NCBI RefSeq assembly: GCF_003313385.1
Contig: NZ_QMHN01000001.1
Location: 1,228,097 to 1,292,096, forward strand
DNA: 64,000 bases
Origin: Pedobacter chitinilyticus
GTDB lineage: Bacteria > Bacteroidota > Bacteroidia > Sphingobacteriales > Sphingobacteriaceae
Direction: 5' to 3'
Shown: positions 4,208 through 36,547 of the stretch, piece by piece
Position numbering within the stretch: position 1 is the first letter of the stretch
Layout: every line of letters starts with the position of its first letter
Notes under the pieces: generated by a model
The model's database searches: none
The model's input: only the letters and a program-made list of their open reading frames with translations
What the model was told of the DNA's origin: nothing
Made by a program: the position numbers and the translations under genes

Positions 4208-4235
4208 TTGGTTGTAAAAGTATAAAAGCAAATTC

Positions 4236-5705: not shown

Positions 5706-5706
5706 C

Positions 5707-10516: not shown

Positions 10517-10545
10517 TTGTAAAATGTACGCTTTTACTACCTTTG
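10517..10545 (+). promoter_or_regulatory. Promoter of ffs
   Basis: TTG at 10517-10519 and TACCTTTG at 10538-10545 are separated by 18 nt. This matches the Bacteroidota TTG(N17-23)TAnnTTTG pattern, with the RNA start expected about 5 nt downstream at the base of the SRP RNA stem. Confidence 0.7.
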
Positions 10546-10549
10546 TGCC

Positions 10550-10646: not shown

Positions 10647-10758
10647 ATTTTTTTACTCCCCTAACGCCCTCCGATAAAATGGAGTAGATTCTGAAGGGGG
10701 AAATAAATTCTTCAGGTTTCCATTGTTGAACCGTTAACCAATTATAGAATTAAACATC

Positions 10759-11418: not shown

Positions 11419-11441
11419 GCGATACATACCTTATATATAAA

Positions 11442-11470
11442 GGCCTTCAGATCACTGGAGGCCTTTTTTT
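11442..11470 (+). terminator. Rho-independent terminator of the aldolase gene
   Basis: GGCCTTCAG (11442-11450) and CTGGAGGCC (11455-11463) form a near-perfect stem with a 4-nt loop, followed by seven T. Confidence 0.85.
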
Positions 11471-11510
11471 ATTATTTATCGTTTTACTTATGTCAAATAG
11501 CAACATGCTA

Positions 11511-11539
11511 GATCTCTCCTAAGGTTGAGATGACGACGG
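11511..11539. repeat. Dispersed intergenic repeat, GATYTCTC...GAGATGACG family
   Basis: A copy of a degenerate element seen also near 14902, 18102, 18144, 53306 and 60915. It opens with GATCTCTCC and ends TTGAGATGACG, so the two ends are loosely palindromic. Confidence 0.55.
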
Positions 11540-11620
11540 ATAGCGTTTGGCTACTATTGATCTACCTAACTATTCTCTAAAACTTTTTTGTTTTTACTAG
11601 GTTATGCTAACTTTACCATA

Positions 11621-12460
11621 ATGAAAGCTAAAAACGTACTTCTCTCCCTATCTGTAATTGCTGCCACCCTGCTAACCAGCAATACTTTTGCACAGCATCA
11701 GTTATCAACTCCATTATGGGAAGCAAAAGAAAATTTGCCTGTACCCGAATCGGTGCTTTACAAAGCAAACACTAAGGAACTTTTTGTAAGCTTGATTGAT
11801 GGCCCTGGAAATGTGAAAGATGGCAAAGGTGGTGTAGCCATATTGAATTTAGATGGCTCCATGAAAAATGCAAATTGGGTTACGGGCTTAAATGCACCAA
11901 AAGGATTAGCCTTATACCAAAACACGCTATACATTGCTGACCTCACTGCGGTAGTGAGCGTAGACATTCGTAGTGGAAAAGTTAAAGAAACGCTGGAAAT
12001 TGAAGGGGCTGTATTTTTAAATGACCTCACCGTTGATGATCAGGGAGCGGTATATGTTTCTGATACCAGAACACATAAAATCTATAAAATTGACAATGGA
12101 AAGTACTCCTTATATATGGAGAATGCCAAAGGCGCCAACGGACTAAAGTGGCTAAACAACATGCTTTATGTTTTGGCGAGTACCGAACTTTGGCAAGTTG
12201 ATGCTCAAAAGCAGGTAAAAGTAATTGCCAAAGGGTTTGAAAAAGGTGGTGATGGCCTAGAACCTGTAGGCAATGGCGATTTTATCGTTACTTGCTGGGC
12301 AGGCATTATTTATTACGTAAAAGCTAACGGCGATATTGAAAAACTATTGGATGTGCAGGGAAAAATGAATACTGCTGATATTGGATACAATGCCAAAGAA
12401 AGGATTATTTACGTACCCACTTTTAACCAAAACAGCGTGGTTGCTTACCAGCTTAAATAA
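11621..12460 (+). CDS. Exported SMP-30/gluconolactonase-like beta-propeller protein
   Basis: The ATG at 11621 is preferred over an upstream in-frame one at 11588 because it starts a clean signal peptide (MKAKNVLLSLSVIAATLLTS then NTFAQ). The 279-residue product has repeated propeller blades with motifs such as APKGLALYQNTLYIADL, LNDLTVDDQGAVYVSDT and NGLKWLNNMLYVL. This is typical of SMP-30/NHL-like six-bladed propellers, some of which are lactonases. No substrate can be assigned. It stands alone after the aldolase terminator. Confidence 0.75.
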   Translation: MKAKNVLLSLSVIAATLLTSNTFAQHQLSTPLWEAKENLPVPESVLYKANTKELFVSLIDGPGNVKDGKGGVAILNLDGSMKNANWVTGLNAPKGLALYQNTLYIADLTAVVSVDIRSGKVKETLEIEGAVFLNDLTVDDQGAVYVSDTRTHKIYKIDNGKYSLYMENAKGANGLKWLNNMLYVLASTELWQVDAQKQVKVIAKGFEKGGDGLEPVGNGDFIVTCWAGIIYYVKANGDIEKLLDVQGKMNTADIGYNAKERIIYVPTFNQNSVVAYQLK

Positions 12461-12524
12461 CGCATAAACATTTATGGACAACAATAAAAAATGTTGTCTA
12501 GTAGTAAAAAAACGCTTTGATCAA

Positions 12525-12755
12525 TTATTCTGCTTGGAATGCCGAAGCTAACTCTTGCAATTGTTGCGAAGAGATTTGACTTGGGTCTTTGTACTGTTTC
12601 TCCAGCAGGTCTTGCGCAATGCTAATTTTACCGCTCGTTGTTCTAATCAAACACTCGCCATTTTCAATGGTGCTAGAAATGTATCTACCAATTTGGCGAT
12701 TGACATACGAAAAACGGAGCACTAATTCATGGAAAATAAATACCGGATAATTCAT
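12525..12755 (-). CDS. Small uncharacterised protein (76 aa)
   Basis: The ATG start at 12755 leads to MNYPVFIFHELVLRFSYVNR. A short basic region and a Ser/Gln-rich helical C-terminus follow (DPSQISSQQLQELASAFQAE). No signal peptide or known motif is recognised. It sits alone between the SMP-30-like gene and the Crp-type regulator, with plausible codon use. It is probably real, but without a family assignment. Confidence 0.55.
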   Translation of the reverse strand: MNYPVFIFHELVLRFSYVNRQIGRYISSTIENGECLIRTTSGKISIAQDLLEKQYKDPSQISSQQLQELASAFQAE

Positions 12756-12863
12756 AGATTAAAGGTAAATGCCCAATGTTAATTTAACGTTAACAAAAAG
12801 TCACTAAAATATTAAATAGGTTAAGCGGATGTTAATTGTGTCATGGCAGAAAAACAAGTCCTT

Positions 12864-13430
12864 TTATTTCGACTTTAACCTGCTCAAGGTTTCTTGAGAG
12901 ATATTAAGATAAGAAGCTACCATTTTATTGGAAAGCCTTTGAACAATGATCGGATTTTCTTCCAATAGCTGATGATATTTTGCAAGTGCATCTTGAGTGA
13001 GAAATGACATAAGGCGCTTAGTGTTACTCACGTAAGCATTTTCAAGATACATTCTGTAAAACTTTTCCCATTGCGGAATAACCTCTAGCAAATGATAAAA
13101 GCTTTTGTGCGTGATGTAATAGATTTCCGTAGTTTCTACCGCTTGTACATACTCATCGGAAGGCGCTGCATTAATAAAGCTCATCAAAGCGGTGGCAAAC
13201 TGATTTTCGAATGCTAAATATCGGGTAGATTCATGTCCAGCTTCGTCAATAAAGAAAATCCTTAAACAACCCTTTACCACAAAAAAGGTCCGTTGGCTCA
13301 ACTCGCCTTGAGAAAGCAGTATTTGGTTTTTCCTTAGTTTGAGCGGTACAAAATAAGAGAGAATGGTATTCAGTTCTTCTTCTGTTACCGATATTCTATT
13401 TTTAATATACGCTCCTAATGCTTCCGTCAT
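12864..13430 (-). CDS. Crp/Fnr-family transcriptional regulator
   Basis: A 188-residue protein with an N-terminal cyclic-nucleotide-binding-like barrel (LSQGELSQRTFFVVKGCLRI near residue 40). The C-terminal DNA-binding helix-turn-helix contains SNKMVASYLNISQETLSRLKS, the recognition pattern of Bacteroidota Crp homologues. The barrel lacks the RAA-type phosphate cassette of true cAMP receptors, so the ligand is unknown. It lies 124 nt downstream of the MFS exporter gene on the same strand and may regulate it. That link is inference. Confidence 0.88.
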   Translation of the reverse strand: MTEALGAYIKNRISVTEEELNTILSYFVPLKLRKNQILLSQGELSQRTFFVVKGCLRIFFIDEAGHESTRYLAFENQFATALMSFINAAPSDEYVQAVETTEIYYITHKSFYHLLEVIPQWEKFYRMYLENAYVSNTKRLMSFLTQDALAKYHQLLEENPIIVQRLSNKMVASYLNISQETLSRLKSK

Positions 13431-21868: not shown

Positions 21869-22177
21869 TTTTAATAGGATTAATGTTTTTTGTCTTTCTA
21901 GAGGATGGAAGATGTTATAAAGCTCATCTTGCTTGCAATAGACGTATCGGCAGATAGTAGGGCAAACATGCAAAATTTTTCGATACATCGTATCTCTTCT
22001 TAGAAGATTTTTTTACTTTTTTTAGTGAAGATAAGGCTTTAAACATTTAAGTTTTAAGCACTTTAGGCTTTGGCTATTATCACCAATTACACTTTAAGGC
22101 AAGGAAAATATTTTACTATATTTATTTTATATCTAAATAAAATTATACCTAAAAAATTCTTCTATAACATTCAACCC
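21869..22177. other. Intergenic region between divergent HU-HIG and XRE genes
   Basis: AT-rich, divergent promoter space. Long frames here are extensions of the flanking genes upstream of their likely starts. No RNA gene or clear repeat was seen. Confidence 0.4.
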
Positions 22178-22390
22178 ATGAAAAAAATAATCTACAACAG
22201 GATCAAATCCGTATTAGCCGAAAATGGCAAAAGCATTAATGAATTAGCTATCTTTCTGAAGTTGAAAGATACAACCATTTCTAATTGGTGTGAAAATAAA
22301 AGTCAGCCTTCCCTTCAAAATCTTGATAAAATTGCCTTTTTTCTTCAGATTGATATCAGGGAATTATTAGTACAAACAAAGTGGGACTGA
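22178..22390 (+). CDS. Small XRE-type helix-turn-helix regulator
   Basis: The ATG at 22178 gives a 70-residue protein that is essentially one Cro/CI-type HTH: KSVLAENGKSINELAIFLKL, then KDTTISNWCENKSQPSLQNL and DKIAFFLQIDIRELL. It resembles the short stand-alone XRE regulators of Bacteroidota that bind DNA as dimers. The upstream 36 codons of the frame are unlikely to be translated. A structured 67-nt repeat begins 20 nt after its stop. The target is unknown. Confidence 0.85.
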   Translation: MKKIIYNRIKSVLAENGKSINELAIFLKLKDTTISNWCENKSQPSLQNLDKIAFFLQIDIRELLVQTKWD

Positions 22391-22409
22391 TTGACCCTTT
22401 CTCGTGGTT

Positions 22410-22476
22410 GGTGTTATTGCTACACCACAATTTACCTATTAATAATGATTAGTGACAATACCAACCAGAGGTTAAA
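22410..22476 (+). repeat. 67-nt structured repeat, copy 1
   Basis: Aligns without gaps to 25809-25875 (44 of 67 identical, differences mostly transitions). Both fold with positions 1-13 pairing to 41-53. Here the stem is GGTGTTATTGCTA with TAGTGACAATACC. Pairs 11-43 (C-G here, T-A there) and 12-42 (T-A here, C-G there) change together. It lies 20 nt after the XRE stop and before the cspA promoter. Confidence 0.6.
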
Positions 22477-22560
22477 ATTATTCTTCTGCCCTTTAAACCA
22501 TAATTATTACACATTACAGTCACTTATCTTAAAGAAAACTGGAAATCAATAAATTATATT

Positions 22561-22568
22561 TATGTTTG
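22561..22568 (+). promoter_or_regulatory. Predicted -7 element of the cold shock gene
   Basis: TATGTTTG matches TAnnTTTG exactly and ends 20 nt before the ATG. The -33 element is not clear. Confidence 0.45.
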
Positions 22569-22588
22569 TAGCCTAATAAAAAAATACA

Positions 22589-22780
22589 ATGCAACAAGGA
22601 ACAGTAAAATTTTTCAATGAGTCAAAAGGTTTTGGCTTCATTGTACCTTCTAATGGCGATGCCGAAATTTTTGTACACATCTCAGGTCTAGTTGATCAAA
22701 TTCGTGAAAACGACACGGTTAACTATGAAGTTGAGCAAGGAAAAAAAGGTTTAAATGCCGTTAACGTAACTATCGCTTAA
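22589..22780 (+). CDS. Cold shock protein (CspA family)
   Basis: 63-residue single cold-shock domain: MQQGTVKFFNESKGFGFIVP carries RNP1 (KGFGFI), and EIFVHISGL is RNP2. These proteins bind single-stranded RNA and melt secondary structure. It has its own predicted promoter and a strong terminator, so it is monocistronic. It lies between two direct copies of the structured repeat (22410 and 22857). Confidence 0.96.
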   Translation: MQQGTVKFFNESKGFGFIVPSNGDAEIFVHISGLVDQIRENDTVNYEVEQGKKGLNAVNVTIA

Positions 22781-22802
22781 GACAATTCTTCTTATAGTTA
22801 GG

Positions 22803-22833
22803 AACATCCGCTTTTTTGCGGATGTTTTTTTTT
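22803..22833 (+). terminator. Rho-independent terminator of the cold shock gene
   Basis: ACATCCGC and GCGGATGT form perfect arms around TTTTTT and are followed by nine T. Confidence 0.9.
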
Positions 22834-22856
22834 GCCTTAGGTTTTTACTTTAGGTT

Positions 22857-22915
22857 TGTGTTGTCACCATACCACCATTGACCTATCAGCAATAATTACA
22901 ACAATATAGAGAAGA
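22857..22915 (+). repeat. 67-nt structured repeat, degenerate copy 2
   Basis: It shares the core GACCTATCAGCAAT with copy 3 at 25809-25875 and keeps a shorter stem (GTTGT with ACAAC), shifted as if a few bases of the right arm were lost. Confidence 0.45.
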
Positions 22916-22961
22916 TAAGATTGGTAATAATCCCAAGCAAGTAATGACACCTAGGACATCG

Positions 22962-24242
22962 CTATTTGGCCATGAGGATAATTTCGCGTGTTTGCAACCT
23001 TTCAGAAAGCCATTTTCTTAACTTGGTAGTATCGGTTTTTGCTCCACTACCGTAAAGAAAAAGAAAACTTAGTTTTGCACTGTCGGTAGCTGGATACTTT
23101 TCTACCTTTCCCAAAGTAATGTCCCTTAATTCTGGAAACAAGATATTCATCTCCCTTACCAAACTAGGATCGTTAACCTTATACCGATCAAGTTCCTGTC
23201 TGAGGCTATTAATGGTCAGGTCTTTTTCAGAGATGGAAGTATTTCGCTTATTGACCTCATTGAGTATCTCCGACTTCAGGTCGGTATCATCCTGTCTAAT
23301 TTGCAGCGAAGCATTTACGCCACGTTCATTAAGCAACTTGTTATAGTCTTTAATCTCTTTGCCGCTGAGCTTCCTGTTCAAGAAAGCTAATTCAATCGCT
23401 TTTGGACGGGCATGGTAGTTGATTTTTTTATAAATGACTGTGTAGCCGCGGCTGGTAAATTCGGTACCAATAAATTCTTCAACCGTTTTAATAAATTTCT
23501 TTTCGTTCCAAAGGGTATAAGCCAAATAACAGCTGGGAATAATCATCACCATAATGAGGCTAGTAATGCCATAACGTATACGCTTGCGGTATTTGTCATC
23601 TACTAACGCCGACGGATATTTTAGGTACTTTACCAGCAGAAAAGTAGCGATACAGATAAAGAAACAGTTGATGGTGTACAAGTAAAACGCACCAAAAAAA
23701 TAGGTAAAATTAAAGGTGGCCAAACCATATCCTGCGGTACATAATGGTGGCATTAGTGCGGTGGCAATGGCCACTCCTGGAATGGGATTTCCTTTTTCTA
23801 CCCGCGTGATGGCAATAACCCCTACCAGTCCGCCAAAAAAGGCGATCAGTACGTCGTAAATATTGGGAGAAGTTCTAGCCAAAAGTTCAGACTGTACATC
23901 TTTAAAGGGGCTGATGTAGAAATAAATACAGGAAACCACCAGACTAACCACCGTGGCAATCAATAGGTTTTTTATCGACTTTTTCAATAAACCAAAATCA
24001 TAAGTACCTAGGGCGAAACCCGCACCCACAATGGGTCCCATTAACGGGGAAATTAACATTGCACCAATGATTACAGCGGTTGAGTTAACATTCAATCCTA
24101 CCGAGGCAATTAGGATGGCACAGGCCAATATCCACAGATTGGAACCTCTAAAGGAAGTATTTGAAGTCACATTGTCTAATACCTTATTCTTGTCTTCTTC
24201 TCCACTGTGGAGGTCGATAAAATTAAATATCGGATTGCCCAT
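22962..24242 (-). CDS. DUF389 membrane protein
   Basis: 426 residues. The N-terminal half has about five to six membrane segments with the DUF389 signatures ASVGLNVNSTAVIIGAMLIS, PLMGPIVGAGFALG and NPIPGVAIATALMPPLCTAG. The C-terminal half is soluble, with a helical part (EILNEVNKRNTSISEKDL) and a BON- or OB-like end. The function of DUF389 is unknown. Its start lies 5 nt after the nhaA stop, so the two are cotranscribed. A link to ion homeostasis is an inference from this pairing. Confidence 0.9.
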   Translation of the reverse strand: MGNPIFNFIDLHSGEEDKNKVLDNVTSNTSFRGSNLWILACAILIASVGLNVNSTAVIIGAMLISPLMGPIVGAGFALGTYDFGLLKKSIKNLLIATVVSLVVSCIYFYISPFKDVQSELLARTSPNIYDVLIAFFGGLVGVIAITRVEKGNPIPGVAIATALMPPLCTAGYGLATFNFTYFFGAFYLYTINCFFICIATFLLVKYLKYPSALVDDKYRKRIRYGITSLIMVMIIPSCYLAYTLWNEKKFIKTVEEFIGTEFTSRGYTVIYKKINYHARPKAIELAFLNRKLSGKEIKDYNKLLNERGVNASLQIRQDDTDLKSEILNEVNKRNTSISEKDLTINSLRQELDRYKVNDPSLVREMNILFPELRDITLGKVEKYPATDSAKLSFLFLYGSGAKTDTTKLRKWLSERLQTREIILMAK

Positions 24243-26007: not shown

Positions 26008-27060
26008 ATGAAGTATCTCTTTTTTTTATTTTTTCTCTTCTCTATCCACGCCAAAGCACAAGATGTTGAAGTTTTACTGATCGGTGTTTCCCATGATTAT
26101 AGTAAATATCCCACACAGGATTTTTCTAGCATCCATCAAAAAATCAAAAAGTTTAAGCCCGATGCCTTTTTTGGTGAGTTTTTGAGTAAGGAAGACGAGC
26201 GACTGGTAATGGATTATTGGTGTAAACAGCCCAATAATCATCGGCTAAAAATACTGAGAGGCAACAGAGCCATCAAAGAGGAATTACTACCGCATACGAT
26301 TGACAGCTTAAAACAGCTATCCCTGCGGAAACCCAATGATTATTGGATAAAAGCAGCGCTGGCCCATGGCTATTACCTTGATCAGGATGTAGCCAATGGC
26401 CATTATCAATTTTGGCAAGTTTACCATTCCCTACAGCAACAACCCAATGCAGAGCTTGAAAGTTACGTGGACAAATTGCTTAGCCCTCGGTTAGATACCA
26501 CTGGACGAAGCATGAGAAGGCTGAAAACTTCGGAATATGCCTATATCGCCTTCCCGATGATGAGGGAGTTAGGCATGAAGGAATTACTTCCTATGGATAA
26601 CCAAGAATACGACTTGAATTGGCAAGCCTCGTGGACAGCATTCGACGCTGCTTTCACTTTGTTCAGAAAAGACCTCAACGATTCGCTTAAACAGCAGTTA
26701 AAATCAGCTTTAACCTCGATTAACAATGGCTACAAGCGATATGATCAAATCGAAATGTCTTCCAATAAAGTCACGGAATGGTTAAACACTGATGAAGCCT
26801 CTGGCATTTCGGCCTCGGGAGATTTCTACTTACCTGTGATGTATGACATGAAAGGCTTTCCTAAAGAAGAAATGCTGTCGAAAATACATTGGTGGATCAT
26901 GAGAAATGAGGGCATGTGCCGTAATGTGGTAAACAGAGCGAAAAAGGCAGGCGCTAAAAGAGTAGTGGTTTTGGCGGGCGCCAATCACAGAAAATACATG
27001 CAAGACATTTTCAAGACCATGCCCCATGTCAAAGTGAAAAACATTAATGAGGTTAACTAA
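26008..27060 (+). CDS. Exported DUF5694 (TraB/TIKI-like) protein
   Basis: 350 residues starting with a signal peptide (MKYLFFLFFLFSIHAKAQ). The mature part opens VEVLLIGVSHDY, has KPDAFFGEFLS (the conserved acidic position) and ends VVVLAGANHRKYMQDIF, the GxNH-type motif. Together these are the features of DUF5694, related to TraB/TIKI-like metallopeptidase folds (GxxH near the start, GxxH near the end). Function unknown. It sits behind a long leader that may include the structured repeat. Confidence 0.75.
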   Translation: MKYLFFLFFLFSIHAKAQDVEVLLIGVSHDYSKYPTQDFSSIHQKIKKFKPDAFFGEFLSKEDERLVMDYWCKQPNNHRLKILRGNRAIKEELLPHTIDSLKQLSLRKPNDYWIKAALAHGYYLDQDVANGHYQFWQVYHSLQQQPNAELESYVDKLLSPRLDTTGRSMRRLKTSEYAYIAFPMMRELGMKELLPMDNQEYDLNWQASWTAFDAAFTLFRKDLNDSLKQQLKSALTSINNGYKRYDQIEMSSNKVTEWLNTDEASGISASGDFYLPVMYDMKGFPKEEMLSKIHWWIMRNEGMCRNVVNRAKKAGAKRVVVLAGANHRKYMQDIFKTMPHVKVKNINEVN

Positions 27061-27233
27061 ATGGCAACTACGCTGAAGGGATAAAAAGGTTAACATCAAA
27101 AGTGTAATGCGCTGTAAGCTGAACCACCAAATCCCTCCTTCTGGCGCAAGCATTGTCGGAGCAGTGCTTGTGCTTTAACTATTTCATCTAAATGCTTCTC
27201 GATCTAAGGATTTAACTGAGGATACACTATCTC

Positions 27234-27893
27234 TTAGCTTAACCCATATTTCTCAATGATGGGCTGGCTCTTTTCTGGATAGTAGGTCAATCCAAATCTT
27301 TTATCTAATTCGGCCACACGTTTTGCAATTCCAGGTTCTTCAAAAGATATTTTCCGTTCAATAACTTCAGGAATGATTTGATGATATATTTCCTCTAAAT
27401 AATCTTCAAAATTTTGATTGAAATACATATCAATCAATCGTAAATTCTTATCGCCAGCATTCCATACCACATGAACAATTCCTCTAGGCCTTAAATGCCA
27501 GCTTCCAGCAGAAACCTCCACCACTTCATCGCCCATTAAAACCGAAGCAGTTCCTTCTAATACGTACATCAGTTCATCCAAGTGATCGTGCTTATGAGGA
27601 GCCCCAGCAATCTTTTTAGGTGCCAATACGGCCTCTACACAAGAAAACTGGGTATTGGTTTGAGCACTGCGAATTAATGTACGCATGTTGCTGCCCAAAG
27701 GCCCAACTTCAAGTACCGTTTTTGGAGGGATTAAAAAAGGCATTGGAGCTTTATTTGTTACAGTCTCAACCTCTTGTTTCTTTTCGGTATCACTGCAAGA
27801 AGTTAGAGGAAGAACACACAAGGCGGCTGCGAATAAACCTATTTTTTGCAAGGCCTCACGTCGGGATGTTTCATTTACCTGCATCATTTGCAT
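27234..27893 (-). CDS. Exported cupin-domain protein, probable lipoprotein
   Basis: 219 residues. The N-terminus has SRREALQKIGLFAAALCVLP, a Tat-like SRRxxL start, and a lipobox LTSC at residues 30-33. The cupin barrel shows KIAGAPHKHDHLDELMYVLE (metal-ligand pattern HxH...E) and RPRGIVHVVWNAG (second His). Cupins of this form include dioxygenases and sugar isomerases; no substrate can be named. It is the last chromosomal gene before the left end of the tRNA-Lys island. Confidence 0.8.
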   Translation of the reverse strand: MQMMQVNETSRREALQKIGLFAAALCVLPLTSCSDTEKKQEVETVTNKAPMPFLIPPKTVLEVGPLGSNMRTLIRSAQTNTQFSCVEAVLAPKKIAGAPHKHDHLDELMYVLEGTASVLMGDEVVEVSAGSWHLRPRGIVHVVWNAGDKNLRLIDMYFNQNFEDYLEEIYHQIIPEVIERKISFEEPGIAKRVAELDKRFGLTYYPEKSQPIIEKYGLS

Positions 27894-28001
27894 TTTAGCG
27901 TTTGTTAATGAAATTATTCAGTATGATGTTTTTTTGTAGGCGAACGTTGTAAGAAATATATAGTATTAAAGATAAGGAATACCCAATAGCTTATGAAACA
28001 A

Positions 28002-28048
28002 AAAAGCCTCAACTTTCGTTGAGGCTTTGTCTGTGATCCCGCTGGGAT
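28002..28048. mobile_element. attL of the tRNA-Lys island (47-bp direct repeat)
   Basis: Identical over 47 bp to 34467-34513. It consists of the tRNA-Lys terminator hairpin (GCCTCAAC-TTTC-GTTGAGGC), a spacer and the last 15 nt of the tRNA gene, then stops abruptly. No complete tRNA is here, so this is the displaced attachment copy. Confidence 0.9.
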
Positions 28049-28112
28049 AATAACTTAATAATCCAAACGGTACTAAATGAGCAAGTTATAAATAATAGTT
28101 AGTTGTCATTTC

Positions 28113-28135
28113 AAATTGGGCACTAAATTGGGCAC
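28113..28135. repeat. Tandem 11-bp repeats near attL, possible integrase arm sites
   Basis: AAATTGGGCAC occurs twice in direct orientation (28113-28123 and 28125-28135), 65 bp inside the left attachment repeat. Tyrosine integrases often bind such repeated arm sites. Here the integrase itself is missing, so this is inference. The surrounding 28049-28290 contains no gene. Confidence 0.4.
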
Positions 28136-28290
28136 CAGTTATTTCGAAACGATTTGACTAACTTTAAAGAACAATTTGTAACTCAAATATAAAAAAACAC
28201 AGTCAAAATTGCAAGAAATACGAATTAGCGTATCTTCTCGAAAACATAGTTTTTGGAGATATGCTCAGATATTCCTTCAAATATTTCAGT

Positions 28291-30255
28291 TTATTTTTCA
28301 AGGATACTGTTAAGATATTTATCAAAGAGTTCCTGTTGCTCTGAGGCAGATTTTCCCTCGAAATTTTTAGCAATTTTTTCTTGCAAAGATGGATTTTTTG
28401 TTAAGGTCTTGAGCTTATCTTGTATTTTAGCTTTTGGTTTCAGTCCAGTAAGAATTGCAATTTCATCTTTTTGAGAAATAAATGGCTCATATAATTTGTT
28501 AAAACCTCTCCCTACAGCACCTTGAAACATAATTAATTCTGGATTGAGTTCTTCATCCGTACCATTTTTCAATGTGTGGGTAGTTGCAATTCCTGGATAA
28601 GGGTCTATATAGAAAATTTCCTTTATACCTAATTGGTAAGCCTTCTTTGAACATAATTCACAAGGGCTAGCTGTTGTAAACAATTTTCCTCCTTTTATGC
28701 CAACACCTCCAAATTTGGTAATTTGCATCATTGCATTTTCTTCAGCATGTAAAGAACGAGTATGCACCTGATTTTTCTCGCCCTCAAAAGCATTATGAAA
28801 GTCTCGGAAACAAAAATTGCATATTCTGCCGTCCAAATGAATAACATTGGCGTTTTGATACTCCTTTTCTGCTTTAAGTTTGAAACTTACGCCATCATCA
28901 TAATTACTGCCTGATTTTTCAAATTTCGAAAACATAAATGAGTTCTCGCCATTGATTAGATGACCTAAATCTCTTAAGCCACAAGGGACTTGATTCTCTG
29001 GAACATCATTCCATCCTATGGCTTTTATGGAATATTGTTCATCAGTAACTACAGCACCGACTTGGCGAGATATGCAACCAGAATTTGATTTTGAATTGTA
29101 AGCAACCTGCATAAAGTGTTCGTTTATTGAAGGTGTAACTAGACCTGGCTTTTTGATTAGTGCGACTAGTTTAATTAATTGATCTTCAAATGAAACATAT
29201 TTCTTCTCCGTTTCTTTTATCTCTCCCTCTATAAATATATGATAATCACACTTTTGTATGCAATGCTCGATATCTGGACTATAAAACTTGCCTGCCTTAA
29301 AATCATTTGTTTTAAATTCTTCATCATCTAAAAAGGTTAATGCAATATTATCTTCTGGATCATTATGACCATATTTACGATTGGCATCCTTTATGCTTTG
29401 TAAACGATCAGCCTCGGTTTTATTACTTGCTACCATGTAGAATGCCGAAAACTTCTCTTTGAAATACATTATTTCCAAAGAATTTTTCAACGAATCAATA
29501 ACAAATCTAGTTGGTTTTTTAGTTTCTTTACGCCACGCTTTAACAATTCTGTTTATTGTATTTGCAATGGTATTGATGTGTTTCAGCTCAAGATTTAGTT
29601 CCTTTTTTTTAACAGTTCCATTTGCTCTCAAGTATAAAGCTATATCATGAGTAAATCTTGTGCGTTTAATCATGTTATAGCTATTTAATACTTGATAAAA
29701 ATCATCACAAAACTTAATAAAAACGCCCTCAAAGTAAAGCTGATAAACCATTGACTTATTTTGGAGATTTTCTGACAAAGATTTTTCAAAATTAAATTTC
29801 GCCCTAAAGCCCATCAGATAATCTTGATTTGATCTCAAAAAAGATGTAAACTCATTATCAATAAAATTACTATCCTCTTTTTTGTCAAAGCGGTTTTTAG
29901 TTTGGGGATTTATACTTTTTCCATTCTGTGTCAGAGTATCGGTTATATCAAAAATCCAATCCTCTATTCTTTCCCCCTTAATACATTCAAATAAAAGATG
30001 TAGTAGTAAGATATTTTTGTAATTTATAACCTGAAATGGAACCCAATTTCCGTCGTAGGCTAAAAAATCAAATGATATTTTATGTTTTAGATCTTCAAGC
30101 GAACTCTTACTGTCTATTATTTTAGGTGTTTGTGATTTAATGAATTTCTCATCTTTTAGACTTCCTGCAATCTGACTGCATCCAGATCCTAACCTGCCGG
30201 TTAATCCAATGATTGTGAAATCATTTCTTAGTGAATAAAATTCTGTAAGTTTCAT
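28291..30255 (-). CDS. Anti-phage dCTP deaminase-type protein (P-loop plus cytidine/dCMP deaminase domain)
   Basis: The ATG at 30255 gives 654 residues; the frame extends to a TTG at 30279. The N-terminus has the P-loop GLTGRLGSGCS (residues 17-27) of a kinase-like domain. The C-terminal deaminase domain has SRQVGAVVTDEQYSIKAIGW near 395, the zinc motif HAEEN near 501 and PCELC near 530. This architecture matches the defence deaminases that destroy dCTP/dCMP during phage infection (AvcD/dCTP deaminase systems). Extra Cys in CNFCFRDFH are notable. It is divergent from the HTH gene. Confidence 0.88.
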   Translation of the reverse strand: MKLTEFYSLRNDFTIIGLTGRLGSGCSQIAGSLKDEKFIKSQTPKIIDSKSSLEDLKHKISFDFLAYDGNWVPFQVINYKNILLLHLLFECIKGERIEDWIFDITDTLTQNGKSINPQTKNRFDKKEDSNFIDNEFTSFLRSNQDYLMGFRAKFNFEKSLSENLQNKSMVYQLYFEGVFIKFCDDFYQVLNSYNMIKRTRFTHDIALYLRANGTVKKKELNLELKHINTIANTINRIVKAWRKETKKPTRFVIDSLKNSLEIMYFKEKFSAFYMVASNKTEADRLQSIKDANRKYGHNDPEDNIALTFLDDEEFKTNDFKAGKFYSPDIEHCIQKCDYHIFIEGEIKETEKKYVSFEDQLIKLVALIKKPGLVTPSINEHFMQVAYNSKSNSGCISRQVGAVVTDEQYSIKAIGWNDVPENQVPCGLRDLGHLINGENSFMFSKFEKSGSNYDDGVSFKLKAEKEYQNANVIHLDGRICNFCFRDFHNAFEGEKNQVHTRSLHAEENAMMQITKFGGVGIKGGKLFTTASPCELCSKKAYQLGIKEIFYIDPYPGIATTHTLKNGTDEELNPELIMFQGAVGRGFNKLYEPFISQKDEIAILTGLKPKAKIQDKLKTLTKNPSLQEKIAKNFEGKSASEQQELFDKYLNSILEK

Positions 30256-30459
30256 ATTAAGTACGTTAAGTTTTCCCAATGCTACAAAATTTTATTGAAA
30301 AAAGGTCATTGCATAATTGTATGATGATTCACTAATTATTTTGAATTTTATCTTTAGTTTTTTAGAAATTATCTATTTTTTTTGACAAGGTTACTAGTGA
30401 GTTGTCCATAGTTAAGGCTTTCACTTGGCAGATTTGTCTGATAACTTAAAAGGATAATT

Positions 30460-30735
30460 ATGGCAACTATAGAATTTATAACCAAAGAAGATTTAGATAA
30501 GTTCAAACAGGAGCTTTTCTCCGAACTGAGAAGACCTGGACAAAAACTGCACAAAAACAGTGAGCAAAAAGAATGGCTAAAAAGTTATGAAGTACGTAAG
30601 CTATTAAGCATCTCGCCAGGAACTTTACAAAGTCTTCGTGATTCGGGCACACTTAAATTTAGCAAAGTTGGCGGATTGATGTTTTACAAATATGATGATG
30701 TGGCAGCGCTCATTGACGGAAAAAAGAATAAATGA
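30460..30735 (+). CDS. Excisionase-like helix-turn-helix protein
   Basis: 91 residues. An N-terminal helix (EFITKEDLDKFKQELFSELR) is followed by the MerR/Xis-type HTH: WLKSYEVRKLLSISPGTLQS, LRDSGTLKFSKVGGLMFYKY and DDVAALI. This is the small HTH protein common in Bacteroidota integrative elements, where it may act as a recombination directionality factor or regulator. It is divergent from the deaminase gene with 204 nt between them and is followed 105 nt later by the PD-(D/E)XK gene. Confidence 0.85.
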   Translation: MATIEFITKEDLDKFKQELFSELRRPGQKLHKNSEQKEWLKSYEVRKLLSISPGTLQSLRDSGTLKFSKVGGLMFYKYDDVAALIDGKKNK

Positions 30736-30840
30736 GGTTTGAACGTGTCTACAGATTGTTTTGTTCTATAGAACTGTAAGGAAACAACTATATATAGGCA
30801 ATTGGCTAATTCCATTAAAGAATTTCTGTAGATTAGCGTG

Positions 30841-31923
30841 ATGACTAATCAGGTACTTTTCGATATAAAAATACGGACTGAGACACGCCCAGCGTTTGGG
30901 AATGAAAATTCATTCGATTATTTTAACAATACTGCCCGAAATGATGTAGACCCGATAAGAGAAGTCATGGAAGGCTGGTATAGCATTTATCCAGATTCTG
31001 AAAAATTCGAAATTAGACAACGACTTAAATCTGATTTTCAGCCTGCGTTTTACGAATTGGGAATGCACGCTTATTTTAAAAATCTCGGCTTTGATTTAAC
31101 TATTCATCCAAAGTTACTGACTACGACAAAGCACCCTGATTTTTTGGTCGTAAAAGACAGTGAGGACTTTTATGTGGAAATTAAAGAGATGAGGATGTTT
31201 TCAGATGCAGAACGTTTGCTTGCTAAGCAAAAAAATACTTTGCTTGACTCCCTTAACCGTATCGACAGCACTAATTTTTTGCTATCTATTCAAAAAATCA
31301 TATTTAAGAATGGAAGTCAGCCTAGTGGTAAAAAAATTATTAGTCATTTTGATAAGATTATAAGCACTATCGAACCAGATCCTTTTAGGATACTCATGGA
31401 AAATGGAGGCTATGGTGGTATGCCACATCTTAATTATGAGGACGAAAGTGTCTATATCGATCTCAAACTAATACCTAAGGCAACACATCTTCGTGGAAAT
31501 ACAGGCAGAGCAATTGGTAGTTATGGAGCATATTCAAAGATTGGAGGAGATGAAGCAGCTATAAGAGATGCTTTATTGCAAAAAGCAAAACGTTACGGTG
31601 AATTGGATAAGCCATTTTTGATCTGTCTTAATTACCCAAGTTCTTTTCTTGATGAAGATGATGTCAAAGTTGCGTTGTTTGGATTGAATAACCAGATTTA
31701 TGAAAATGGTTTCGATGGTTTTTTCGGCACTGAAGAAAACCCAAAAAACACGCGTGTTTCCGCCGTTTTAATTACTGGTTTTACCGTGTCAGGGCTTTCA
31801 AATGGTAAAATCTACTATTATAAAAATCCATTTGCAAAAAGAGCAATTACTTTTTTGCCATCATTTGATCTTATCACGAGCTTAGGATTGAGTGATAGCT
31901 ATGTCGAGAAATTTGGCATCTAA
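30841..31923 (+). CDS. Uncharacterised protein with PD-(D/E)XK nuclease-like motif
   Basis: 360 residues from the ATG at 30841; a GTG just before it (30838) is the alternative start. No family is recognised, but residues 71-115 read YELGMHAYFKNLGFDL...HPDFLV...YVEIKE. This is the E72, D100, E113-x-K115 arrangement of a PD-(D/E)XK nuclease core. The later half has a Gly-rich stretch (NGGYGGMPHLN) and SSFLDEDDVKVALFGLN. In a defence island next to a deaminase it may be a restriction-like effector; that is inference. Same strand as the HTH gene. Confidence 0.7.
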   Translation: MTNQVLFDIKIRTETRPAFGNENSFDYFNNTARNDVDPIREVMEGWYSIYPDSEKFEIRQRLKSDFQPAFYELGMHAYFKNLGFDLTIHPKLLTTTKHPDFLVVKDSEDFYVEIKEMRMFSDAERLLAKQKNTLLDSLNRIDSTNFLLSIQKIIFKNGSQPSGKKIISHFDKIISTIEPDPFRILMENGGYGGMPHLNYEDESVYIDLKLIPKATHLRGNTGRAIGSYGAYSKIGGDEAAIRDALLQKAKRYGELDKPFLICLNYPSSFLDEDDVKVALFGLNNQIYENGFDGFFGTEENPKNTRVSAVLITGFTVSGLSNGKIYYYKNPFAKRAITFLPSFDLITSLGLSDSYVEKFGI

Positions 31924-32006
31924 AGCTGATGTTATGTTATCGTCAACTTAGATATACGACCGTAAGCTATTTTCAACAAATCTTTGGTTTAGGGTGTCTT
32001 TGCAGT

Positions 32007-32867
32007 TTAAGGATTAATCTTTGGAACTTCAATTTCACTATCTTCTAAATAAATAGGCATAACCAAATATTTGGATAAATTCCAACTAATCCTCTTTTGT
32101 AGGTCTTCAAAGTGCTCGGCTTTAATGCTGTTAACTCTATTTTCCTTCAATAAGCGAAAAGGATTGCTTTTATCTTCTGCACTTTCGTGAAAGACAAACA
32201 GACAATATTCGCCAGAGAGAGGAAGGTAAATCTCAGCTTCAATCGGTATGAGTGCTTCGAAATTATTCTTCCTGTCAATCACTACTGGATTATCGGTTGT
32301 CATCCATTGAATATCACCCGGCTTTTCGATTACCAAGAATTTAAAATACCCAAATACTTCGGCCAAATACGCAGTAATTGTTCCAAGGATGGTATTTAGT
32401 TGCAAATCTATAGGGACAATTTTTAGGGTTTCCTCCAAAATATCTTTGTTCTCATTAAACATACAGATTTCATCAACAAATCTTTTACAAGCTTCCTCAT
32501 CCCTTAAAATCATTTGAATGAAATTAGTAAAAGGTATTGATCTAGTTAGCAAACTAGCCAAGAAATGACATAGTACGTCAACGTTTTTCCAAGTAAGCTG
32601 TTTTTGGTTTTGTAGGTTGGAGATTATGGTCAAATAAAAATTTTCTACCTTGCCGCATTGTGTTTCAAAATTACGTCTGAATTCAATATCGCCATATGGT
32701 GCATCAAAAATGTTAAAATCTGCGGTAAACTCGGATATTCGCAAATTTTCCGTCATTTTATTTCCAAGCCGATATACTGATACTTTCCATTCCCCATCAA
32801 CGATATGTCCAAATTGTTTTAGATATACTTGGGAAACTCGATGCTGATTCTGATATTCTGGATGCAT
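32007..32867 (-). CDS. DUF4238-type protein
   Basis: 286 residues. The start MHPEYQNQHRVSQVYLKQFG matches the DUF4238 signature (HxVPxxYLxxF-like), followed by a typical helical middle (CHFLASLLTRSIPFTNFIQM) and WMTTDNPVVIDRKN near residue 190, which is also conserved in that family. Function unknown; members are often found in accessory and defence regions. It starts 33 nt after the phospholipase-D-like gene on the same strand, so the two probably form an operon. Confidence 0.75.
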   Translation of the reverse strand: MHPEYQNQHRVSQVYLKQFGHIVDGEWKVSVYRLGNKMTENLRISEFTADFNIFDAPYGDIEFRRNFETQCGKVENFYLTIISNLQNQKQLTWKNVDVLCHFLASLLTRSIPFTNFIQMILRDEEACKRFVDEICMFNENKDILEETLKIVPIDLQLNTILGTITAYLAEVFGYFKFLVIEKPGDIQWMTTDNPVVIDRKNNFEALIPIEAEIYLPLSGEYCLFVFHESAEDKSNPFRLLKENRVNSIKAEHFEDLQKRISWNLSKYLVMPIYLEDSEIEVPKINP

Positions 32868-32900
32868 ACTTATCGGTTCGAATGGGTTAAAAAACTGATT

Positions 32901-33704
32901 TCACTTTATGAGTTGCATAAATTCATTAGCATATTTTTCTGCCAAATCCCTGCTGTTTTCAACACTAACAGTTTCTTTATTCCACTTTGCTTTAACAGTC
33001 CAATTATATGATCCATGTACAACAGTCCTGAAATCTACAATACAAAATTTGTGATGCATTATATTTTCATATTGTCCAGTTTTTTGAACCCTTTTTGTCT
33101 CGAAAAATTTTTCGTATGGAAAGCCGTACTTGCTATTTATATCGTCGTCAAGAATAACTAGCCTTACATTTACACCTTCTCTAGCCTTTGAAACCAGTTC
33201 CTTCATCAATTCCCTGTCGGTAAACCAAGCCACTGCTATCCATATCGTAAATTTAGCTGATCGAATTTGTTCGATGATTTGGGTCTGTATATCCTCAAAG
33301 TGTACTTCTACCTCTATGGCGTCTGGAAAGTCGGCCCCGATGACCTTATATCTTCCATCGGTATCTTCTAAACGGTAGCCATCCTGGAGTATTAATGGAT
33401 TAAAATTCTCAACTGCTTGTTTTAAATCTTTTTTTCCATCCATGGCAAAATGTCTAGGGTCGAACACTAGTTCGGCTAATAAGACCATTTGCTTAGTACC
33501 GTTTATTTCATAGAGTTTTTCTCTTACATATGCATTTCTGCTAAGGCTGTTAGGCATACCGCCATCGCCCCATTTATATACATCTTTGTATCCGATATGA
33601 TTGAACAGTTTTAGAATATTTGTTCCGCTCAAGTATGGTGTGTAGCCATTGTCTCCTGAAACGAATTCAATGATGCTTTCGATAGTTAAATCTGAGAGTT
33701 TCAC
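32901..33704 (-). CDS. Phospholipase D-like nuclease (single HKD motif) with N-terminal domain
   Basis: 267 residues. The C-terminal PLD domain has IRSAKFTIWIAVAWFTDREL, VRLVILDD and a single HKD site, HHKFCIVD (near residue 216) followed by HGSYNWT. One motif per chain implies a dimeric active site, as in Nuc-type nucleases. The N-terminal 120 residues (GYKDVYKWGDGGMPNSLSRN, LLAELVFDPRHF) recall AbiJ-like N-terminal domains of abortive-infection proteins; this is a weaker call. It is first in a two-gene unit with the DUF4238 gene. Confidence 0.8.
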   Translation of the reverse strand: MKLSDLTIESIIEFVSGDNGYTPYLSGTNILKLFNHIGYKDVYKWGDGGMPNSLSRNAYVREKLYEINGTKQMVLLAELVFDPRHFAMDGKKDLKQAVENFNPLILQDGYRLEDTDGRYKVIGADFPDAIEVEVHFEDIQTQIIEQIRSAKFTIWIAVAWFTDRELMKELVSKAREGVNVRLVILDDDINSKYGFPYEKFFETKRVQKTGQYENIMHHKFCIVDFRTVVHGSYNWTVKAKWNKETVSVENSRDLAEKYANEFMQLIK

Positions 33705-33884
33705 TTGCTTAATTTATTGGTGGTTATACAAAGTTAACCAATCTGTTGATCAGTAAGGAATATCGTGCATTATTTGGTGAGGTTACAGACACCTTGTCAA
33801 ACACTTCCAAAAACACAGCTCATTTTTGCTTCCGATAACTATGTAAAAATCCAAGTTCAGCACGACTGTTCTATGGGCCAAGTG

Positions 33885-33982
33885 CAAACACCCGAGTGTT
33901 TGGCAAGATGTATTTTTGTCCACAGGACAAAAACATCTTGCCGCCCTTACGGTCGGAGCAGGCACTCGGAACTCGTGCCTGC
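33885..33982. other. Candidate oriT: three consecutive hairpins before mobC
   Basis: Perfect arms CAAACAC/GTGTTTG (33885-33902, 4-nt loop); a long stem GGCAAGATG(TA)TTTTTGTCC with GGACAAAAACATCTTGCC (33902-33942, 3-nt loop, 2-nt bulge); and GCAGGCAC/GTGCCTGC (33958-33982). They end 24 nt before mobC, the usual position of a transfer origin in mobilizable elements. The rest of 33705-34006 has no gene. Confidence 0.5.
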
Positions 33983-34006
33983 CTGAACTTCTTCAGATGT
34001 ACCTAT

Positions 34007-34330
34007 ATGAGCATAAAAGCAGCCAATAAGGATAGCAACAAACTGATCCATCCCATTAGGACAAGGGTAAATAAAGAGACCTACCAAAAATTGGAAAGCC
34101 TACTTGAAAACAGCACCTGCCAAAGCATCGGTGAACTTGCCCGAAAGCTCATCACAAGGGAAAAGATCAACTGCACGTACAAGGACATAACGATGAACGC
34201 CCCAATGGAATCGCTATCTGCGAGAAGAGAAGAACTCTGGCGCATCGGTCTCAACATCAACCAGGTGACACGCCTGGTTAGTCTCGCTTATATTGAAATA
34301 TCGCTTTTTAACGATTTGGAGGCTGTTTAA
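34007..34330 (+). CDS. MobC-like relaxosome protein, C-terminally truncated
   Basis: The ATG at 34007 gives 107 residues: an N-terminal ribbon-helix-helix-like part (IRTRVNKETYQKLESLLENS), SIGELARKLITREKI and LSARREELWRIGLNINQVTR, typical of Bacteroidota MobC proteins. Family members normally continue about 30 residues; here the sequence departs after NQVTR into an unrelated 18-residue tail ending beside a degenerate att site. The relaxase gene expected downstream is absent. It is thus a remnant, though it could still bind the hairpins upstream. Confidence 0.75.
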   Translation: MSIKAANKDSNKLIHPIRTRVNKETYQKLESLLENSTCQSIGELARKLITREKINCTYKDITMNAPMESLSARREELWRIGLNINQVTRLVSLAYIEISLFNDLEAV

Positions 34331-34338
34331 ATAAATAT

Positions 34339-34380
34339 GGCCTTCGTTGAAAGGCTATCTGTGATCCCACGGGGATTGGT
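34339..34380. mobile_element. Degenerate third att copy
   Basis: GGCCTTCGTTGAAAGGCTAT followed by CTGTGATCCCACGGGGATTGG is a diverged version of the 47-bp repeat (terminator half plus tRNA 3' end). It begins 9 nt after the mobC stop. The next 86 bp contain tRNA-like scraps (TCGAACCCAG, TTCGAATCCCGC), suggesting repeated insertions at this site. Confidence 0.65.
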
Positions 34381-34466
34381 TCAGTCCCGCATTTCCCAAA
34401 CTCGACCTTGAGCCTTTTCCAAATCGAACCCAGCCAACCCTTCTGTTCGAATCCCGCTTAAACGAC

Positions 34467-34492
34467 AAAAGCCTCAACTTTCGTTGAGGCTT
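34467..34492 (-). terminator. Terminator of tRNA-Lys
   Basis: Minus-strand hairpin GCCTCAAC-GAAA-GTTGAGGC followed by TTTT, starting 9 nt after the tRNA 3' end. The same hairpin was carried to attL. Confidence 0.8.
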
Positions 34493-34513
34493 TGTCTGTG
34501 ATCCCGCTGGGAT
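34467..34513. mobile_element. attR of the island, overlapping tRNA-Lys
   Basis: Identical to 28002-28048. It includes the tRNA terminator hairpin and the last 15 nt of the functional tRNA-Lys, so integration restored the tRNA. Confidence 0.9.
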
Positions 34514-34571
34514 TCGAACCCAGGACCACTACATTAAAAGTGTAATGCTCTACCAGCTGAGCTACGGAATC
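34499..34571 (-). tRNA. tRNA-Lys (anticodon TTT)
   Basis: The minus strand reads GATTCCGTAGCTCAGCTGGT at the start, an anticodon loop CTTTTAA and a T arm CTGGGTTCGAATCCCAG. The acceptor stem GATTCCG/CGGGATC has one G-T pair, with discriminator A and no encoded CCA. 73 nt. It is the integration target of the island on its left. Confidence 0.97.
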
Positions 34572-34741
34572 TTCCTTCGTTCTAAGGAGGTGCAAATATA
34601 GAAATATTAATTAATGCTTCAAATAAAATATTAAAAAAGTATTAAATATTTTTTGGGGCCAAGAAACAGTCGAAAAACCAAATGGGATATTGGGTTTAAA
34701 CGAGGCATTTTTCCATAGAAAAAAGACAAAAAAATGAGGTC

Positions 34742-34812
34742 AAAAAAAAAAGGGCCAAGAAACTAGTTCCTGACCCTACATCTACCTATGAAAAACATAC
34801 CCCCGAAAGGGT
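34742..34812 (-). ncRNA. Candidate small RNA or orphan terminator
   Basis: On the minus strand TACATTTG (34818-34825) matches the -7 element. About 70 nt follow with a hairpin TACCC-TTTCG-GGGTA and then a strong terminator: GGGTCAGGAAC, loop TA, GTTTCTTGGCCC and ten T (34742-34776). It is either a short independent RNA or the 3' end of the hexuronate operon transcript, which ends at 34928 upstream. The rest of 34572-34927 shows no gene. Confidence 0.4.
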
Positions 34813-34927
34813 AAGCCCAAATGTAAAAACATTTTTTTGAATTCTATAATATTTCTCAAAAAAAATTAAATAATATTTCAATTGACACATGTTTGTTACA
34901 ATAACCGTGTTTATAGCCTGTTTAATC

Positions 34928-36547
34928 CTAAAACAGGTACTTTGTGCTGAGGAAATTAGAGCTATGCCCGTCGATAATTTCGTTCAAAAGTTGTTTATTA
35001 TTATCATTTAATTTGGTAGCCACTAGCGAACGGATAGAGAAAGCTCTCAGTGCATCCACCACCGAAAGTGTTCCTTCGGCACTGTCTTTTCTCCCCGTAA
35101 ACGGAAACACATCTGGTCCTCGCTGACATTGGCAATTGATGTTTACCCTACTCACTTGGTTTACGATTGGATCAATTAAAGCGGCTACCTCTTCATTGGC
35201 ATTACTGAAAATACTCACCTGCTGTCCGTGGGTAGATTCAATCAGGTAATTAATCGGCTCTTCAATGTCATCAAAAGTCACTACTGGAATGACAGGACCA
35301 AATTGTTCCTCGGTGTAAAGCTTCATTTCTTTGGTGACTGGATAAACCACCGCAGGATATACGAAGGACTCTTTCGTTTGTCCCCCATTTTCATTAATCA
35401 CCTGGGCTCCCTTAGTTACCGCATCATCAATCAACTCCTGCAAATAAGCTGGCTTTTGCGGTTCGGGCAGTGGCGTTAGCGACACGCCATCTTGCCAAGG
35501 CATACCGAATTTAAGTTTGGCAATCTCGGCCGACAGCTCTTTCACAAACTGATCGACATGCTTTTTATGTACAAAAATGATTTTTAAAGCGGTACAGCGC
35601 TGACCATTAAAGGACAAAGCACCCAATACCGTTTCTTTTACTGCCAGGTTTAAATCGGCATTGGCTGTAATGATGGCCGCATTTTTGGCATCTAAACCTA
35701 AAATAGCACGTAAGCGGTTTACTTTAGGGTGCATCTTTTTAAGTTCGTTGGCCACTTTGCTGGAGCCAATAAGCGTCAGCACATTAATTTTACCCGACTC
35801 CATTAAACCAGGAATGATTTTATTGCCCCTACCATAAATGGTGTTCACCACACCTTTAGGAAAATTGTCCCTAAACGCTTTTAACAAAGGGTAAAACAAC
35901 AAGGTACCGTGTTTAGGTGGTTTAAATAAAATGGTATTCCCCATAATTAAAGCAGGGATTAATGTAGTGAAGGTTTCATTTAAAGGATAATTAAATGGTC
36001 CCATGCAAAGCACTACGCCCAAAGGTGAACGACGGATTTGCGCCACAATGCCTTGTTCAATGGTAAACCCTGCCGATTTACGGTCAATGTCTTTTAAAGC
36101 ATCAATGGTCGCGTTGATATATTCGATGGTTCTGTCGAATTCTTTTACCGAGTCGCCATAAGTCTTCCCTATTTCCCACATGATCAGTTTCACCACTTCC
36201 TGCTTCTTCTCCATAATATCACGGGTGAACTTCTCTACGCATTCAATGCGTTGTGCTACGCTCATGGTAGGCCACTCGCCTCTTCCGTTATTATAGGCAT
36301 GAACGGCTGCATCTAAAGCGATTTGCGCCTCTTTCTCGCCACAAAGTGGATAAGTACCGATCAGCTTTCGTTCCAAGCCTTTTGCGGTTTTGATACAAAT
36401 TGGAGACAGTACGGTGTGTACATCTCCCGACCAAGTCAACATATCTCCGTTAGAGAGATAGCTACGTTGGTCTAAAGGTCCTTCGAGTGCATACTCGGCA
36501 GGAACATCTGCTTCGGCGGGAAACAGATTTTCTAGGTTTAGGGACAT
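34928..36547 (-). CDS. gapN: NADP-dependent glyceraldehyde-3-phosphate dehydrogenase-like aldehyde dehydrogenase (GapN group)
   Basis: 539 residues, slightly longer than standard ALDH. Visible: VVLCMGPFNYPLNETFTTLI (the catalytic Asn region), LIGSSKVANELKK (cofactor loop), GLDAKNAAII and FNGQRCTALKI with the catalytic Cys. The set fits the non-phosphorylating GapN group, which oxidises glyceraldehyde 3-phosphate directly to 3-phosphoglycerate with NADP+. As last gene of the hexuronate operon it could consume the triose from KDPG cleavage; the exact substrate remains inferred. Confidence 0.8.
   Translation of the reverse strand: MSLNLENLFPAEADVPAEYALEGPLDQRSYLSNGDMLTWSGDVHTVLSPICIKTAKGLERKLIGTYPLCGEKEAQIALDAAVHAYNNGRGEWPTMSVAQRIECVEKFTRDIMEKKQEVVKLIMWEIGKTYGDSVKEFDRTIEYINATIDALKDIDRKSAGFTIEQGIVAQIRRSPLGVVLCMGPFNYPLNETFTTLIPALIMGNTILFKPPKHGTLLFYPLLKAFRDNFPKGVVNTIYGRGNKIIPGLMESGKINVLTLIGSSKVANELKKMHPKVNRLRAILGLDAKNAAIITANADLNLAVKETVLGALSFNGQRCTALKIIFVHKKHVDQFVKELSAEIAKLKFGMPWQDGVSLTPLPEPQKPAYLQELIDDAVTKGAQVINENGGQTKESFVYPAVVYPVTKEMKLYTEEQFGPVIPVVTFDDIEEPINYLIESTHGQQVSIFSNANEEVAALIDPIVNQVSRVNINCQCQRGPDVFPFTGRKDSAEGTLSVVDALRAFSIRSLVATKLNDNNKQLLNEIIDGHSSNFLSTKYLF

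Follow-up and report, generated by a model that had tools for sequence, protein, structure and literature searches.

Cis-mobilizable elements (CIMEs) are defined, in the parts of two published accounts drawn on here, as derivatives of integrative and conjugative elements (ICEs) or integrative and mobilizable elements (IMEs) that are flanked by attachment (att) sites and move by accretion with a relative (PMC5704250, PMC7563491). The CIME counts cited in those parts come from streptococci, and gene-free microCIMEs of 130-220 bp are described there for Streptococcus salivarius (PMC7563491). Here, a 6.5-kb island (28002-34513) at a tRNA-Lys gene of Pedobacter chitinilyticus (GCF_003313385.1, contig NZ_QMHN01000001.1) is compared with such elements; coordinates refer to the window, the whole stretch of 64,000 nt that was analysed (positions 1,228,097-1,292,096). 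The island is probably a CIME that arose by internal deletion and would depend for its movement on the insertion of a relative next to it. Taken as a whole, the sequence is best read as a CIME plus a microCIME-like unit of 137 bp, and any movement would be through accretion with an element that newly arrives.

The island is bracketed by a perfect direct repeat of 47 bp, the attL copy at 28002-28048 being identical to the attR copy at 34467-34513 (both on the plus strand). The right copy coincides with the 3' end of a tRNA-Lys(ttt) gene (34498-34571, minus strand; ARAGORN; Rfam RF00005, 9e-15), the integration target, and with the terminator of that gene. Each copy is composed of a 17-bp core, TGTGATCCCGCTGGGAT, which is common to related elements (28032-28048 and 34497-34513), and a 30-bp copy of the tRNA terminator. 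The host genome (5.05 Mb) contains the repeat twice when up to three mismatches are allowed, against none for the reversed pattern; the second tRNA-Lys of the host (contig C9) has a similar region, 98% over a 134-base query, whose small gaps place it outside this ungapped pattern count. An earlier note on this DNA had described cargo bracketed by a perfect repeat and integrated at tRNA-Lys, and both points were borne out; the possibility, raised in the same note, that the repeat is a common genomic one does not hold. The attL and attR flanks of a CIME are present as 47-bp repeats with a common core, and arm-type repeats were not found at the right end. In 1-kb bins, guanine plus cytosine content is 31-35% at 28000-32999 and 39% at 33000-34999; elsewhere in 20000-41999 it is 38-44% in 14 of 15 bins, the exception being 22000-22999 at 31.5%.

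All six island proteins were scanned with Pfam and NCBIfam and none matched an integrase or relaxase family, in agreement with the earlier note. No coupling or transfer genes are left, a mobA/mobC-type accessory gene alone remaining, and the integrase that an IME or autonomous satellite would possess is lacking. A search with the mobA-like protein gave a match in 65 of 145 genomes of the genus, the two nearest being G167 and G133 (G- and L-numbers label the compared genomes and loci, C-numbers the contigs). In both, the left end, a helix-turn-helix (HTH) gene and a stretch comprising mobA and a region resembling an origin of transfer (oriT) are 81-97% identical to the island at the nucleotide level; the left ends are 90-91% identical (G133, 91%), and the oriT/mobA stretch matches that of G133 at 96.7% over 367 bp. 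The G133 element, of 26.7 kb, has a tyrosine integrase gene (IntB, 429 aa) next to tRNA-Lys genes in tandem; it also encodes a relaxase of 422 aa and part of a transfer region. In G167, an 8.2-kb island at tRNA-Lys adjoins a right end that matches the G133 right end at 92% over 118 bp; since it has no integrase and its relaxase matches only to residue 318 of 422, it is, judged from these alignments, a second broken island of the same family, broken at a different place. The left end, HTH gene and oriT/mobA stretch held in common with G133, and the broken state of G167, point to derivation by deletion, in which an ancestral ICE or IME would have lost the DNA between mobA and a point close to its right end. 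Because att repeats, left arm and oriT-like stretch are kept and no integrase or relaxase gene remains, the island is likely a CIME, and a CIME derived by deletion is the simplest reading.

A left-end signature (up to three mismatches) was found at 21 sites in 20 of the 145 genus genomes, including the host (reversed control, 0), and, in a sample of 399 genomes from the family, in 18 genomes, all belonging to the same genus out of 25 genera. Contig ends kept seven sites (G126, G023, G084, G109 twice, G159 and G067) from being traced to a right core. An intact integrase stands at the right core in six of the 14 followed sites, namely IntB in G133, G022 (83 kb), G013 (95 kb), G148 (119 kb) and G092 (83 kb), the last four being 61-74% identical to G133 IntB, and IntA in the 19.4-kb element of G017. 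Three sites retain the integrase N-terminus only (G076, G020, G165) and five have no integrase there (this island, G167, G147, G075, G157), the right core of G075 and G157 being without a tRNA after it. A whole-genome PF00589 scan gave no match inside any of the eight integrase-lacking elements, serine recombinases not having been profile-searched in the relatives. The middles of the G022, G013, G148 and G092 elements lie outside the compared sequence, so that tandems are possible there; tandem arrays do occur at tRNA-Lys sites of this kind, as in G017, where a right end stands directly before a left end. Larger, integrase-bearing versions, which the earlier note had proposed to look for in related genomes, are thus present in G133 and others.

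These relatives bear directly on the view that the island was never mobile, the repeat having arisen by local duplication of the tRNA-Lys end, with ordinary chromosomal genes between the copies. A tRNA-Lys-like fragment at 27093-27133, and a terminator copy 2 kb from the second tRNA-Lys of the host with no integrase between, would suit a duplication of this kind, but all 21 signature sites show this core followed by this left arm, and integrases stand at the other end in six of the 14 followed. The integrase-bearing relatives strongly disfavour this view, which is hardly credible on present evidence. Some further features of the relatives were seen in passing. In G017 (C9:1-27530; L229, L033) there are two IntA copies, each beside a right end and one directly before a left end, with genes resembling SMC and SIR2 in or near the array by eye. 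The integrase-lacking loci L197 (G075) and L241 (G165) contain peptidase-type ABC transporters, whose neighbours resemble peptide export clusters by eye.

The arm-type repeats, defined as GGGCACCA-like with up to one change, were compared across the 14 followed elements. In the left arm of the island (28049-28192, plus strand) they lie at 28118 (GGGCACTA) and 28130 (GGGCACCA), at conserved positions: the pair is found 86 and 98 bases in for 10 of the 14 elements, and of the remaining four G022 has it one base further, G165 has one of the two and G147 and G157 have neither. Three right repeats, 164 (reverse), 137 and 125 bases away from the core end, occur in seven elements (G133, G076, G020, G022, G013, G148, G092); none were found in this island, G167, G017, G075, G157 or G165, and G147 has one elsewhere. 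The island and G167 have therefore each retained the left pair, the right set not being found. Random 400-bp stretches of the elements also held at least two such repeats in 61 of 2000 draws, so that the weight rests on the fixed positions; the repeats are putative integrase arm sites. With the right arm repeats gone, excision of the island by itself is not to be expected from an integrase acting in trans. Accretion would offer another route: a newly arriving ICE with matching att specificity would insert into the tRNA-side core and supply an attR able to pair with the attL of the island, recombination between these two sites would excise both elements as one unit, and this joint unit could then be transferred from an oriT.

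The 163 bp upstream of mobA (33844-34006, plus strand) contain an oriT-like hairpin region, strongly conserved in the five elements aligned (this island, G133, G167, G091 and G075, chosen as best matches) and identical in the island and the relaxase-bearing G133 across three consecutive 30-column windows. The single-strand fold has a z-score of -7.3, with none of 200 shuffles equally good. This is a candidate origin of transfer, and likely the transfer start, which supports the oriT-like region proposed earlier. The presence of this region and of both cores, together with one relaxase in the host, also speaks for a satellite mobilised in trans, in which a helper integrase and relaxase would act directly on the att sites and oriT, as the earlier note had suggested. 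The right-arm repeats were not found, and a whole-genome PF00589 scan of the host gave two matches, in frames of 321 and 297 aa, which we take from their size to be XerC and XerD; both are Xer-sized, so the host genome yielded no cognate integrase. The single relaxase match lies within a separate element (G000:C3:118000-150000; L253, L254) that also carries mobA and a 662-aa coupling protein, and compared with G133 its relaxase is 39%, its mobA 22% and its coupling protein 59% (over 318 aa) identical. Matches of the oriT-like region to this element were at chance level (best E 0.46), and the element was rejected as a helper on these values. Movement by helpers in trans is, with right-arm repeats and cognate integrase missing and the sole relaxase so divergent, quite improbable. 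A 536-aa open reading frame in the same host element has a start resembling a serine recombinase by eye.

At the right-hand end, the mobA/mobC-type gene (34007-34330, plus strand, 107 aa; MobC_2, 1.8e-4 and NF041324, 1e-3, both below cut-offs) has an altered C-terminus: relatives match residues 1-91, the G133 protein is 136 aa long, and identity to G133 drops past about 34210. There follows an inner, decayed core (34360-34376, plus strand), changed at 2 of 17 positions in the core comparison and placed 137 bp before the right core, with a spacer and terminator between the two (34377-34496, plus strand). The unit of 137 bp formed by spacer, terminator and one core has no annotated gene, is bounded by att sites and falls within the 130-220 bp of microCIMEs. 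The spacer unit resembles a region downstream of tRNA-Lys in G086 (80% over 310 columns) and a stretch beside a right end in G075 (77% over 163). Comparison of 34201-34530 with the G133 and G167 right ends gave good matches only at core, tRNA and terminator. The altered mobA end and decayed inner core, with the absence of right-arm repeats and of a cognate host integrase, are also what would be expected of a dead ICE or IME remnant, of the same deletion origin, immobile even in cis, whose retention would be due to its defence genes or to chance. Modest evidence stands on the other side, namely the identity of the distal repeat over 47 bp, including a 30-bp terminator that no longer serves a tRNA, and the retention of the left arm repeats and oriT-like region; a dead remnant is thus possible, though clearly the less likely outcome.

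Since the terminator copy at the far end is identical, the insertion may be fairly recent and may even postdate loss of the integrase, but 30 bp is slight evidence and gene conversion would produce the same identity. Several points weigh against a CIME. Gene conversion may likewise account for the identity of the whole 47-bp repeat. The stretch adjoining the inner core is unlike the G133 and G167 right ends beyond the core, and for this reason the right end of the ancestor was not identified. G147 and G157, two of the eight integrase-lacking elements, are without left arm repeats and may belong to other families; leaving them out gives six intact and six lacking (6 of 12). Finally, in the part of the S. 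salivarius account drawn on here, the most decayed units are farthest from the target gene (PMC7563491), and here the 137-bp unit is the nearest.

The chromosomal site was followed through the aldehyde dehydrogenase gene flanking the island, whose product is 95% identical in Flavobacteriaceae PS02338, 94% in P. xixiisoli, 94% in Nubsella and 99% over residues 26-539 in Pedobacter sp. ASV17, which places the host in the Pedobacter/Nubsella clade. Of 80 named loci, a set of 24 was aligned to the window, and tRNAs were sought in the first 12. A tRNA-Lys stands beside the same gene in G017, P. xixiisoli, PS02338 and ASV17, followed in all four by an integrase-like gene (PF00589 matches in G017 and P. 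xixiisoli; by resemblance in PS02338 and ASV17); in Nubsella the dehydrogenase is present and no tRNA-Lys is found there. The empty tRNA-Lys site that the earlier note had proposed to look for in relatives was not found for this exact position, the four relatives with tRNA-Lys beside this gene all being occupied. The gene to the left of the island has an 84% identical counterpart in G017, after which terminator copies follow. In P. xixiisoli, the genes of window 1-12.8 kb sit on the far side of its tRNA-Lys element; as window 1-12816 is homologous to DNA beyond that element, the variable region spans about 12.8-34.5 kb. A wider island of this extent was considered and set aside, the 47-bp repeat bounding only 28.0-34.5 kb.

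Other observations concern the surroundings. The fragment at 27093-27133, just past a DUF5694 gene, shows 78% identity to the first 41 bases of tRNA-Lys, counted from its 5' end, and is the best tRNA match in the window besides the gene itself (score 23; next 18, near 55300); it is possibly the trace of an older insertion. On host contig C9 (L077), the terminator of the second tRNA-Lys lies at 10876-10906 and again 2 kb away at 12927-12957, with an AraC-type gene, a small lipoprotein-like gene and no integrase between. A short intergenic stretch at 42203-42244 matches several places in relatives, in both orientations. In ASV17 (L089:2304-11176), the same tRNA-Lys is followed by a different integrase and then, by eye, a prophage-like stretch containing a diversity-generating type of reverse transcriptase.

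The cargo is mostly defence-like, as had been noted earlier. The first gene (28291-30279, minus strand) encodes a 662-aa protein of the dCTP-deaminase family, predicted to be anti-phage (PADLOC dCTPase, 1.9e-119; NCBIfam NF041025, 1.2e-94); at 317.6 bits it lies under the curated NF041025 cut-off of 400, and it is a clear homologue of anti-phage dCTP deaminases. AvcD, an anti-phage dCTP deaminase, reduces dC nucleotides upon infection according to the part of PMC10511110 drawn on here; the island protein matches the same profile families as AvcD and differs in scoring under the NCBIfam cut-off. An Rfam scan of 26900-34800, the only means by which an AvcI-like RNA was sought, returned tRNA alone above the gathering score. 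The HTH_17 protein (30460-30735, plus strand, 91 aa; Pfam, 1.3e-8) reaches 18.1 bits against the NCBIfam 'excise' model (0.0025), below its cut-off of 28.8, and is 97% identical in amino acids to its counterpart in G133, 92% in G167 and 89% in G075. Its gene adjoins the oriT-like region in G133 and G075, and in this island cargo separates the two.

The 361-aa protein at 30838-31923 (plus strand) has a weak PADLOC PD-T7-5 match (7.9e-5) and none in Pfam or NCBIfam; D101 and E114 are invariant across 14 sequences, and a PD-(D/E)XK assignment, for which fold matches were also considered, is plausible but tentative. It occurs in seven of 395 genomes of the class including the host, the six others comprising five clear cases and one fragment. 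DUF4238 (32007-32867, minus strand, 286 aa; PF14022, 6e-20) is listed as a defence system in Pseudomonas islands in the part of PMC12629846 used here, and the PLD-domain gene (32901-33704, minus strand, 267 aa; PF13091, 1.6e-23) lies 33 bp upstream of it on the same strand. These three genes were considered as a fixed cassette and rejected, neither partner being found within 1.5 kb of the PD-(D/E)XK-like gene in the six other genomes; in a protein database the best DUF4238 and PLD matches were on contigs of the same size in three cases (9299, 3185 and 14595), which is a hint of linkage only. A viral origin or phage-satellite reading is without support, since the two cargo proteins searched in IMG/VR, the PD-(D/E)XK-like protein and the deaminase, had no confirmed relative there. 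The cargo may protect against phages, the deaminase through depletion of dC nucleotides during infection.

The presence of att flanks and an oriT-like region does not by itself make a defence island a mobile satellite. A bolder proposal is that islands without an integrase persist in Pedobacter as a life-form of their own, in which deletion would continually give rise to carriers bearing att and oriT that act as accretion parasites of intact tRNA-Lys ICEs and shuttle phage-defence genes between strains; eight of the 14 followed sites are without an intact integrase, and the proposal is nevertheless regarded as unlikely. If true, the tRNA-Lys hotspot would be a place of defence-gene exchange by islands without integrases of their own. 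The comparison yields a Bacteroidota family with fixed-position arm repeats, and, as it has defined ends, intact relatives and countable broken members, the movement of decayed islands and their carriage of defence genes become directly testable.

Among known systems, the Pedobacter IntB family at tRNA-Lys (G133, G022, G013, G148, G092) shares with the island the core, left arm repeats, HTH gene (five of five) and oriT/mobA (mobA in four of five, not in the compared part of G148). These elements differ in having an intact integrase and right-arm repeats, neither of which the island has, in their length of 26.7-119 kb, and in relaxase genes in the four where these were seen, compared with none in the island. 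NBU1 and its kin, ICE-dependent elements of Bacteroidetes, likewise have a tRNA target and need a helper for transfer, as far as the relevant part of PMC5704250 describes them, but encode their own integrase and relaxase, whereas the island encodes neither. Streptococcal CIMEs and microCIMEs (S. salivarius; S. agalactiae tRNA-Lys) are, in the part of PMC7563491 drawn on here, att-flanked, located at a tRNA 3' end, derived from ICEs or IMEs and without integrase, relaxase or transfer genes, as is the island, and the length of the microCIMEs agrees with that of its gene-free unit. The island differs in its phylum, element family, predicted defence cargo and retained oriT-like region, and in that its gene-free unit is nearest to the tRNA, not farthest. 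The CIME type of remnant is already known from streptococci, and this island is probably another case, in Bacteroidota.

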